From an uncultured Lachnospiraceae bacterium (GTDB taxonomy: Bacteria > Bacillota > Clostridia > Lachnospirales > Lachnospiraceae), in the NCBI GenBank assembly GCA_949878435.1, contig CATLAK010000002.1:186001-250000 (forward strand): 64,000 nucleotides of DNA, written 5' to 3'. The notes below the pieces were generated by a model. The model was not told the DNA's origin and searched no databases. It worked only from the letters and a program-made list of their open reading frames with translations. This document shows, piece after piece, positions 27,448 through 37,605 of this stretch. Numbering within the stretch: the first letter of the stretch is position 1; each line of letters begins with the position of its first letter. The translations under genes were made by a program, and so were the position numbers.

Positions 27448-27572
27448 TGTGCACTGGCTGCCTCACAAAATAACCAGAACGTTATTAACTATGCAATTGA
27501 ATGCTACATTTATTAACGTTCGCGTAAATAGTGTACCGCATATTTTTATGGACGATATGTAGTGGGTAGGAA

Positions 27573-27864
27573 GGACTGGGCGGGGAGGAGGGATGTGGGG
27601 AGGCGGGTAGAAGAGATAATGGCTGTTGCGGGAGCTTGGGGAAGCAATTAGAAGGACTTAGCATCCCAGTGAGTAACCAGCAATCCGCGGACAGGACGTC
27701 CGCGGAAGGTGTGGCTTGACCATGGATGGTCAAACACACCGTTTGCGTCAACAATTGAATACCTAACAATGGGATGCTTAGCCCTTCTTATTGCTGCACA
27801 CAGTCCCGCAACAGCCATTATCTCTTCTACCCGCCTCCCCACATCCCTCCTCCCCGCCCAGTCC
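27573..27864 (+). repeat. Giant fold-back element E2 (292 bp)
   Basis: Arms 27573-27633 and 27804-27864 are perfect 61-bp inverted copies; pairing resumes at 27643-27668 with 27770-27795 (23 of 26). The 101-base core holds a simple hairpin (CCGCGGAC, loop AGGAC, GTCCGCGG; 27685-27705) and a compound hairpin (GGTGTG/CACACC enclosing TTGACCA, loop TGGA, TGGTCAA; 27708-27740). It fills the space upstream of the esterase ribosome site. With E1 it accounts for most of the 767-bp gap between acyltransferase and esterase; no gene is seen there. Confidence 0.9.
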
Positions 27865-27917
27865 CCCTCGTTAACCAATACTTATACATCACTCATACAT
27901 ATAAATTCGGAGGAATT

Positions 27918-35436: not shown

Positions 35437-35810
35437 AATCAAGTAGGACAAATGATCGCGGCTGTTTTTAACAGGTGAGGAAAGTCCGGGCTTCACAGGG
35501 CAGGATGCCGGATAACGTCCGGTGGAGGCGACTCCAAGGCCAGTGCAACAGAAATAAACCGCCCAGGCGCACAGCGAAGGCTTTGCCGCAGCTGTGGGTT
35601 TGTGGTAAGGGTGGAAAGGCAGTGTAAGAGACTACCGCCTGTACGGTAACGGACAGGGCACATGTAAACCCCATCCGAAGCAAGACCAAACAGAAAGCGC
35701 TTGAGCTTGCCCGGCGAGCTTTCAGGTAGGTCGCTTGAGGCTGTCGGTGACGGCAGTCCTAGATAGATGATCATTCGACGACATAACCCGGCTTATCGTC
35801 CTGCTTGATT
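35437..35810 (+). ncRNA. rnpB: RNase P RNA, bacterial type A
   Basis: The catalytic RNA of RNase P, which matures tRNA 5' ends. Conserved blocks are visible: GAGGAAAGTCCGGGCTTCAC near the 5' end, CAGGGTGCC-like and GTGGAGGCGAC segments, AGAGACTACCGCCTG, AACCCCATCCGAAGCAAGACC, and near the 3' end ACATAACCCGGCTTA. The terminal helix P1 is formed by AATCAAGTAGGAC (35437-35449) with GTCCTGCTTGATT (35798-35810), followed by TTCTTCTT as a likely terminator. A TATAAA at about 35429 could be its -10. The exact 5' end is not certain. Confidence 0.93.
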
Positions 35811-35844
35811 TTCTTCTTAATAATTTGATTTGGGTATAGGTTGT

Positions 35845-36411
35845 GGCGGCATCATACGCAATCGTCTGTCCTTTTGCGCGGATATGCGAACCCTGGATGG
35901 ACTCCCAGGCGCAGGGGCAGAAGGCGGATAAGGGATGCCGGCGGCTGCAGCATGGGGACGAAAGGGAGGGATGCGGCAGGCAGCAGCGACGCGGAGCGGA
36001 GTGCGGACTAGGTGCAGGGGGGAGCGCATAACCTATCGTTTCAAGTCTTCTCTCAAAATCGGATTTCACTAACAGAATGTATATAGGTATATCAAGACGG
36101 TCGGGTCGGAGCCAAGACGGCATCCATGCCGTTTGGCTCCTAAAATCGCCGTCCATGGCGATTTTACCCTAGGTGACTCCACATTCTGTAAGTGAAATTA
36201 CCGATTTTTCGCAGAGACTTGAAACGATAGGTTATGCGCTCCCCCTGCACCCGGTCCGCACTCCGCTCCGTGTCGCTGCAGCCTGCCGCATCCGCCCTTT
36301 CCTCCCCATGCCGCCGCCGGCATCCCTTATCCGTCTTCTGCCCCTGCACCTGGGAGTCCATCCAGGGTTCGCAGCCGCGCAAAAGGACAGACGATTGCGT
36401 ATGATGCTGCT
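35845..36411 (-). repeat. Giant fold-back element E3 (567 bp)
   Basis: Two arms of about 235 bases (35845-36080 and 36181-36411) are inverted copies with roughly nine in ten positions matching by eye, including compensating changes and one small gap. The centre carries, read on the minus strand, a simple hairpin (36142-36165, loop ATGGAC) and a compound hairpin (36108-36140, inner loop TGGA). About 200 bases around the centre (36031-36236) are homologous, in inverted orientation, to E4. It lies 34 bases after rnpB. Reading frames across it are by-products of the repeat; no gene is supported. Confidence 0.92.
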
Positions 36412-36488
36412 TAAGGTTATTCATATTTTTGGGGGAATTATTGGGGATGTGGCTATTTTGGGGATATTGGCAGGAAAGAGGGATTGAT

Positions 36489-37328
36489 ATGGGATGGAAG
36501 GATAGGGTAGGGAGGCTGGCTCTTGGGGCTTGGGGGCTGGCGGTTAGTTTGGGGGTAGGATGTGAATGGGAGAGGGGGAGTCTGTGTCTGGCGGCAGATG
36601 TAGGGGAGATGCCGCATTTGATTCAGGCGACGAGTCTGGAGGAGGATTATAGGGCGGCGGCAGGGCTGGGGCTTTTACTTACCCGGAGGGCTTCTGGGAC
36701 AGAGGCGCGGGAGGCGTTTGAAAATGTGCTGTGCAGCTGCGTCCGCATTCAGGTAGAAGGGCACCATGGAAGCGGCAGTATTTATAGGATGCTGGAAGAT
36801 AAAATCATTGTTGTGACCAACAAGCATGTGCTGCAATATTGGAATGAAGACAGCTACATTACCTTTTTTAACGGAAGAACCTCCGGCGGGGAGCTGCTTG
36901 GCACCTCCAACGAAGCAGACCTTGGCTTTATCCGCATCCCCATAGACGGATTCACTTACGAAGAACTCCTTGCCTTCCGAAATATCCGCATACCAGACGA
37001 ATTAAAAGAGGAAGATAGATCGCAACATTTCCCCGCGGAAGGCAGCAAAATATTTATGATAAACATAGCCTCAAAGTGGAACACCCCAACAATGACGGAA
37101 GGAGAGATCCTTTCCGACTTAACATATCTGGAAGATTTCGGCATGGAAATGCTCTATGCCAAAGGAGAAGCCATACCCGGCATGTCAGGAGGCGGCATTT
37201 TCGACTATAGTGGAAATTACCTGGGCATGCTCACCGGAGCAACTCTCCAAAACGAACTTGCCGCCGTCCCAGCGAAAATAATCTATGAAGAATTTCAAAA
37301 ATTCAATTTAACACAGCCTATCGGATGA
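36489..37328 (+). CDS. Secreted trypsin-like serine protease
   Basis: 279 residues from the ATG at 36489, which has GAGGG seven bases upstream. Hydrophobic N-terminus (GRLALGAWGLAVSLGVG) suggests a signal peptide or anchor. Catalytic triad in S1-like order: His in VTNKHVLQYW, Asp in NEADLGFIRIP, Ser in PGMSGGGIFD; the preceding HHGSGSIYRM fits the first barrel strand. No PDZ domain follows, so it is not a full DegP. Likely processes envelope or exported proteins. It lies exactly between two giant fold-back elements (E3 and E4) that point away from it. Confidence 0.82.
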   Translation: MGWKDRVGRLALGAWGLAVSLGVGCEWERGSLCLAADVGEMPHLIQATSLEEDYRAAAGLGLLLTRRASGTEAREAFENVLCSCVRIQVEGHHGSGSIYRMLEDKIIVVTNKHVLQYWNEDSYITFFNGRTSGGELLGTSNEADLGFIRIPIDGFTYEELLAFRNIRIPDELKEEDRSQHFPAEGSKIFMINIASKWNTPTMTEGEILSDLTYLEDFGMEMLYAKGEAIPGMSGGGIFDYSGNYLGMLTGATLQNELAAVPAKIIYEEFQKFNLTQPIG

Positions 37329-37330
37329 GA

Positions 37331-37605
37331 ACAGGGCGGAAGGAAAGACAGGGCAGGCGGCAATGGATATTATGGTTTCAAGGCTCTGGCGAAAATCGGC
37401 AATTTCACTTACAGAATGTTGAACCCATAGGGCAAAATCGCCATGGATGGCGATTTTAGGAGCCAAGCGGCACGGATGCCGCCCTGGCTCCGACCCGGCC
37501 GCATTGAAACACCTACACACATTCTGTTAGTGAAATCCGATTTGCAGACGAGCCTTGAAACCATAATATCCATTGCCGCCTGCCCTGTCTTTCCTTCCAC
37601 CCTGT
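37331..37605 (+). repeat. Giant fold-back element E4 (275 bp)
   Basis: Outer arms 37331-37385 and 37551-37605 are inverted copies with one mismatch in 55. An inner pair (37390-37419 with 37519-37545) matches the E3 inner stem. The core has a simple hairpin (AAAATCGCCA, loop TGGA, TGGCGATTTT; 37434-37457) and a compound hairpin (GGAGCCA/TGGCTCC enclosing GCGGCA, loop CGGA, TGCCGC; 37459-37491). It begins two bases after the protease stop. Together with the rpsT terminator it fills the 366-bp gap. Confidence 0.92.

Follow-up and report, generated by a model that had tools for sequence, protein, structure and literature searches.

A long hairpin after rnpB in a Lachnospiraceae genome as a probable old member of a fold-back transposon family with a TwoAYGGAY core

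TwoAYGGAY was described as a candidate RNA family (Weinberg et al. 2010, PMC2864571), and the element that we examine here resembles the corresponding Rfam entry, RF01731, in the sequence and structure of its core, which score above the curated cut-off. It differs from that family, as far as the accessible part of its description goes, in that the core sits in the middle of a fold-back present in many copies, whose arms (54-211 nt) are particular to each locus, and in that some young copies carry terminal repeats and 8-bp duplications. Also close are the ISBst12 group of IS66 elements (e.g. ISDge4, PMC12898284) and the MITEs with such ends, with which some copies of our family share GTAAC..TTCAGC ends and a few an 8-bp duplication, and, in the case of the MITEs, the family shares the lack of a transposase of its own. 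In comparison with these MITEs, in the excerpts describing them, nearly the whole element is here one palindrome, its arms differ between copies, and most copies, the one in our window included, have no recognisable ends. ERIC, NEMIS/Correia, RU-2 and RU-3 are likewise small, mostly intergenic, non-autonomous and endowed with long stem-loops; according to the accessible text of PMC2229807, however, they are units of about 100-200 bp, whereas here the arms alone measure 54-211 nt and differ between copies. Finally, multi-base mirrored changes in stems, as we see them here, are the mark of quasipalindrome template switching, which PMC8794818, in its accessible part, inferred in RNA genes, whereas here they concern arms of 27 to about 165 nt in one repeat family. 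Our literature search found no paper linking TwoAYGGAY to a MITE, in the portions available of the papers that use this name.

The window, i.e. the whole stretch of 64,000 nucleotides that was analysed, belongs to the genome of an uncultured Lachnospiraceae bacterium (3.40 Mb, 51 contigs, 86% complete), which we will call G000. An earlier note on this DNA had pointed to a near-perfect fold-back directly after rnpB, and both the structure and its place are borne out (Table 1). The two inverted arms align with 7 gap columns around a 166-nt core, and the fold of the 567 nt reaches -487.8 kcal/mol, against -213 +/- 7 in 100 shuffles, none of which is as stable (0/100; z = -38). In the core, an imperfect outer stem encloses two hairpins whose loops read AYGGAY, and the structured 100-base centre that had been noticed is the inner part of the RF01731 match. 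The absence of any credible open frame inside also stands, on the basis of four of the five overlapping ORFs (>=60 aa), which have no Pfam match, a 62-aa ORF having been left out; on the same basis, the window hairpin is a short element without a transposase gene, as MITEs are. The window holds two further hairpins of the family, one with arms of 55 nt that are 98% complementary (37331..37605) and one with arms of 95/101 nt that are about 83% paired (27541..27903).

Table 1. Features of the rnpB hairpin and its surroundings (positions in the window)
Feature	Position	Strand	Remarks
Third hairpin of the TwoAYGGAY family	27541..27903	+	core 27636-27802, type a, RF01731 119 bits
rnpB	35440-35811		ends directly before the hairpin
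First arm (3' arm on the Rfam strand)	35846..36048	.	203 nt, 91.1% complementary to 36215-36410
Outermost 33 nt, first arm	35849..35881	.	common to the orthologous site of G019 and G035; partly G008 and G013
TwoAYGGAY core, RF01731, type b	36049..36214	-	85.5 bits, gathering cut-off 43; 1 of 78 genome matches
Second arm (5' arm on the Rfam strand)	36215..36410	.	196 nt, pairs with the first arm
Outermost 33 nt, second arm	36375..36407	.	partner of 35849-35881
Downstream gene with Trypsin_2 domain	36429-37328		follows the rnpB hairpin
Second hairpin of the TwoAYGGAY family	37331..37605	+	core 37386-37550, RF01731 84.7 bits; after the Trypsin_2 gene

A search for homologues had been proposed, and it revealed an extensive family. 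RF01731 has 78 matches in G000, 77 of them above the cut-off, and when arms were sought by outward extension from each core, 75 of the 78 cores were found to sit inside arms of 54-211 nt (212 on one side in one copy), the other three having at most 13 nt. By our own filters, 65 of the cores are of type b, 8 of type a and 5 of neither type. Among 60 genomes searched, G000 included and with up to 38 candidates scored in each, 16 have matches above the cut-off, all 16 in the same genus, with 29 to at least 38 matches in each of five relatives, while many other genomes of this genus have none. No called gene spans any copy, and arm ends overlap gene ends by at most 47 nt (according to our own codon-usage gene calls); the copies flank genes on their 5' and 3' sides alike. 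Carriage by plasmids or phages was considered and rejected, as the core had no match in the plasmid and phage collections searched. With the first arm of the window hairpin as query, the genome gives 28 matches, two of which are its own arms; of the remaining 26, 24 lie next to further copies on our list. Separately, first-arm-like stretches at G000:C3:210800-210872 and C7:103934-103966 have no listed core beside them and are possible arm remnants.

That such a structure could be an assembly artefact or the product of a recent duplication is already contradicted, and we give this explanation practically no credit. Several of the matches in relatives do lie at the very ends of contigs, which means that such hairpins are hard to assemble; yet the arm differences are scattered, and members of the family turn up at corresponding positions in several assemblies. 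The window hairpin is rather an old member of a fold-back transposon family, and the Rfam label describes its core. We consider it probable that this family consists of non-autonomous transposons (MITEs) with a predicted IS66-type (ISBst12-like) mobilisation, and that its arms are kept complementary by copying. Mechanistically, an IS66-type transposase would act on short terminal repeats of the hairpin, template switching during replication (quasipalindrome correction) would homogenise the arms, and copies would be lost by internal deletion, leaving short hairpins or a single outer arm.

To examine the relationship between the arms, we took the 62 type-b copies whose arms reach 70 nt or more and aligned the inner 80 nt of both arms. 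For 122 of the 124 arms, the nearest arm is their own mate. An arm differs from its mate by a median of 0.037, from the most similar arm outside its own copy by 0.286 and from the arms of other copies in general by 0.461, with the proviso that, the copies having been selected for having arms, the small distance within copies is partly built in but the large distance between copies is not; the cores of the 62 copies differ by a median of 0.141. If the palindrome were merely inherited by transposition, an arm would resemble its counterpart in a sister copy more than its own mate, and the opposite is observed.

Mirrored changes were counted in eight hand-picked orthologous hairpin pairs, over 557 gap-free columns, of which 441 are identical, 72 mirrored (37 transitions and 35 transversions), 25 single-sided and 19 irregular. 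When the two poorly aligned C42 pairs are set aside, 35 mirrored columns (18 transitions, 17 transversions) and 21 single-sided ones are left. There are also 113 mirrored indel columns, but since 107 of them come from these two C42 pairs, only 6 are firm. The two closest pairs (the rnpB site in G019 versus G035, and C13:19143 in G000 versus G008) have no mirrored change, which taken by itself counts against arm copying, and the outer 33 nt at the rnpB site have three mirrored substitutions between G000 and G019. The coexistence of mirrored and single-sided columns, together with the closest pairs devoid of mirrored change, suggests that changes seem to arise on one arm and to be later copied to the other or erased. 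As a side observation on one of these sites, the comparison of G000:C13:19143-19305 with L217 gives a flank identity to G008 of 87.9% on one side and 99.6% on the other, as if a recombination had ended at this hairpin.

The earlier note had hesitated between a very long RNA under pairing selection and an old hairpin-type mobile element, and had reasoned that a recent DNA duplication would not produce substitutions which keep pairing. As an argument against a DNA origin this fails, since template switching in DNA can create and repair stems and thereby give mirrored changes (PMC8794818, in the part accessible), i.e. the same pattern. Moreover, the pairing-type substitutions that it had seen in the arms of the window copy are not in excess, with 3 G.T, 4 A.C and 4 other mismatches on the Rfam strand. 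If RNA pairing were selected, one would expect G.U to exceed A.C on the transcribed strand and transitions to dominate among the mirrored changes. When the outer 15 nt are omitted, the 42 copies in which pairing of the arms reaches 90% or more have 44 G.T for 55 A.C (p = 0.3). The 57 copies with arms at least 85% paired have 97 A.C for 68 G.T (p = 0.03), and all 75 copies, untrimmed, 196 A.C for 116 G.T; this excess of A.C would correspond to G.U on the strand opposite to that of Rfam, and it fades once the poorly paired copies are dropped. We do not, then, see the excess of G.U over A.C on one arm strand that RNA pairing selection would leave. As the well-paired arms show no G.U preference on either strand and transversions are as frequent as transitions among the mirrored changes, the arms are likely kept complementary by arm-to-arm copying in DNA, which is the likeliest cause of their pairing.

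It is in the light of these counts that the hairpins have to be weighed as long structured RNAs (3'-UTR elements or sponges, for instance) whose arms would be under RNA pairing selection, an explanation that we regard as unlikely. The core hairpins covary, G.T outnumbers A.C in the type-b cores when these are read on the Rfam strand (58 versus 23), the copies lie beside genes on both sides alike, and TwoAYGGAY was judged to be probably RNA, and not cis-regulatory, in the accessible text of Weinberg et al. (its Rfam type being Cis-reg). Against this, G.T and A.C are about equal in the well-paired arms, half of the mirrored changes are transversions, the trend is reversed in the type-a cores on the same strand (5 G.T, 11 A.C), and the family is patchy, with sites that have been lost. 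In addition, CsrA has been proposed as a TwoAYGGAY partner or sponge target (PMC4333381, as far as its accessible part goes), but a search for csrA (PF02599) gave no match in G000, which is 86% complete, while 3 of 14 control genomes were positive; the CsrA sponge was therefore rejected. For the arms, then, pairing selection on RNA is not supported. As to the core alone, the preponderance of G.T over A.C in type b leaves room for an RNA role.

When two copies in G000 are less than 600 bp apart, their cores diverge in 8/8 cases (e.g. C14:8449 and 8952), and the same is true of 8/8 close pairs (<600 bp) in relatives, chosen by eye among the matches listed. The 3' side of the core is closer to a gene than the 5' side (medians of 51.5 versus 126 nt, 33/50, p = 0.005), and the 5' arm is G-rich in 72 of the 75 copies, with a mean skew of 0.27, despite the large arm differences between copies; because of the palindromy, this last property holds for both strands. 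The diverging neighbours, the asymmetry towards genes and the G-rich 5' arm may reflect selection on transcription or folding.

That an RNA stem is functional is usually proved by covariation. TwoAYGGAY, with its covarying stems, has long been filed as RNA; it looks like a transposon, with a covariation that would come from arm-to-arm copying in DNA, which is a warning for RNA discovery based on covariation. We would give even odds to the boldest form of this proposal, in which TwoAYGGAY, instead of being a family of RNA genes, would be the central part of giant palindromes driven by IS66. The genome would then keep about 75 self-correcting DNA hairpins, with arms continually rewritten from their mates, so that they drift apart between copies and yet stay near-perfect partners inside each one. 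Long inverted repeats of such kind are unstable in E. coli, and the bacterium examined here holds many of them. With dozens of replicates per genome, it offers a natural test bed for whether template switching or selection maintains stems.

The comparison of related genomes bears on mobility. In G000, G019, G035, G008 and G013, rnpB is followed by the outer arm GCATCATACGCAAT (at most 1 mismatch). In 16 other fetched relatives, the stretch has no RF01731 match, and this outer arm was not found within 700 nt of rnpB (the best having at least 3 mismatches of 14). A cmscan of the rnpB stretch of 20 fetched relatives detected RF01731 in G019 and G035 only. In these two, the core is of type a, and in G000 it is of type b; there the shared outer 33 nt enclose some 165 nt of additional arm. 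G008 and G013 have small hairpins only (13 and about 22 bp, respectively). From one of these genomes to another, the outer arms covary. A likely course is that of a single insertion in the ancestor of the five sampled genomes, followed in the lineage of the window by an exchange of the core or a nested insertion, and in G008 and G013 by an internal deletion that would have collapsed the element to a small hairpin. The neighbouring site at 37386 holds an element in G019 and G035, while G008 and G013 have either a scar or nothing there. A further site, C15:62596, reads without element in G035, G011, G017, G009 and G034, and is filled in G013 and G000, between CTTTTATA and CTTTTATA or CTTTTATG; these 8-bp duplications lie outside the arms, and G008 has there what looks like a deletion scar. 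Together with the 78 core copies and the patchy presence in the genus, these outgroup sites without element favour the second of the early suggestions, an old hairpin-type mobile element, and we regard the mobile nature of the TwoAYGGAY hairpin family as well supported.

The same sites bear on another origin of the locus-specific arms, in which the palindrome would be made at integration: the 3' end would snap back at the core and, as a self-primed second strand, copy one arm and some target DNA, so that arms would be locus-specific from birth. It is in keeping with this that the G008 hairpins at C6:85193 and C15:7642 reach into sequence that is single-copy in G000, and that one outer arm is retained as a single copy in G008 at four other sites. 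The outgroups, however, gave no polarity for C6:85193 or C15:7642, and C15:62596 has its 8-bp duplications outside the arms and an apparent deletion scar in G008, so that a single remaining arm is explained without snap-back. Furthermore, arms change in place at orthologous sites, and those of the copy at C5:53317 appear to copy the donor's, ending exactly at the terminal repeat. We hold a birth of the palindrome at integration to be improbable. Flank capture at insertion (inverted target duplication), an early model, was set aside after the duplications and the likely scar at C15:62596.

What could have moved these elements is suggested by their ends. Allowing up to 3 mismatches, 16 of the 75 copies end an arm with one of two motifs, E1 GTAACAGTTCAGCC (11 copies) or E2 GCAATGTCATTAAG, and the reversed motifs are found in 0 each. 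These ends go with well-paired arms, as 9 of the 20 copies paired at 95% or more have them, compared with 2 of the 31 below 88%. All 16 copies with a recognisable end are of type b, which leaves the type-a copies with no known end. Neither motif is present in the window copy (best matches with 6 and 5 mismatches of 14), which has a possible duplication of only 6 of 8 positions. A first end search with loose windows gave a weak excess (score of at least 8 in 15/75 versus 9% of controls), and a stricter, exact one gave 2/75 at 8 bp. Direct repeats of 8 bp at the arm ends number 2/75 when exact (0.0 expected from mismatched pairs), 5/75 with at most 1 mismatch (1.2 expected) and 16 with at most 2 (11.7 expected), an excess that is small and, at 2 mismatches, slight. 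The copy at C5:53317, with 88-nt arms that are 100% paired, has an exact TCAAACCG duplication. In relatives, a 331-bp TwoAYGGAY hairpin of G034 is bounded by E1 without any mismatch and by a duplication that agrees in 7 of 8 bp, and a 361-bp one of G013 has perfect ends with a duplication match of 5 of 8.

Published IS66 elements have ends that begin with GTAA and 8-bp repeats (PMC12888890, PMC11946415, PMC3281130, in their accessible parts), and an element of the ISBst12 group has the TIR GTAACTGCTCAGCA with an 8-bp repeat (PMC12898284, likewise). Of 37 genomes of the genus, 21 carry genes for an IS66 transposase (PF03050). One of these loci, L373 of G023, has GTAACTATTCAGCC on both sides and an exact 8-bp AGGAATTA, over 1,824 bp in total, and 12 of 14 bases are alike between its end and E1; its protein scores 144 with the NCBIfam IS66 model, below the cut-off of 180, while that of L371 in G018 scores 242, above it. 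Similar ends stand beside the IS66 genes on both sides in L371 and on one side in a fragment of G035. A search for GTAA ends with 8-bp repeats at 30 IS66 loci, many of them too short to contain both element ends, gave three matches, two of which come from loci that overlap at a single place. None of these 30 loci has E2 with 0 or 1 mismatch, and none has it as an end on both sides, IS66 being the only family compared. In G000 itself, 86% complete and with one PF03050 match (on C25), no IS66 gene with matching ends was found, and this partner may have been lost or left unassembled. The young copies with terminal inverted repeats and a few 8-bp duplications, and the matching IS66 ends in a relative, add to the case for a hairpin-type mobile element. 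We infer that the family was mobilised by IS66-type transposases and that this holds for the window copy too, although its ends can no longer be recognised; the link to IS66 is moderately supported, and for type b only.

The motif GTAACWRTTCAG has 44 occurrences in G019, 26 in G035, 15 in G013, 10 in G009, 9 in G000, 6 in G034 and 3 in G008, and its reversed form 0, 0, 1, 0, 1, 2 and 2 times, respectively. Many of its occurrences in G019 and G035 pair up as the bounds of a 133-bp MITE (e.g. L422, L435), the ends of which are GTAACTATTCAG..CTGAACAGTTAC and of which the L435 copy has a 7-of-8 duplication. The G019 contigs C15, C29, C32 and C47 have as their first ~119 bases the same repeat, in either direction, up to the GTAAC end, which indicates that the assembler broke in this repeat. 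At G000:C18:16836 (L426), 46 bp are left between E1 ends, flanked by a duplication matching in 7 of 8 positions; this remnant is probably a collapsed hairpin. Lastly, FMN riboswitches lie near E1 ends in G013 and G009 (L424 1-141, L432 1-129).
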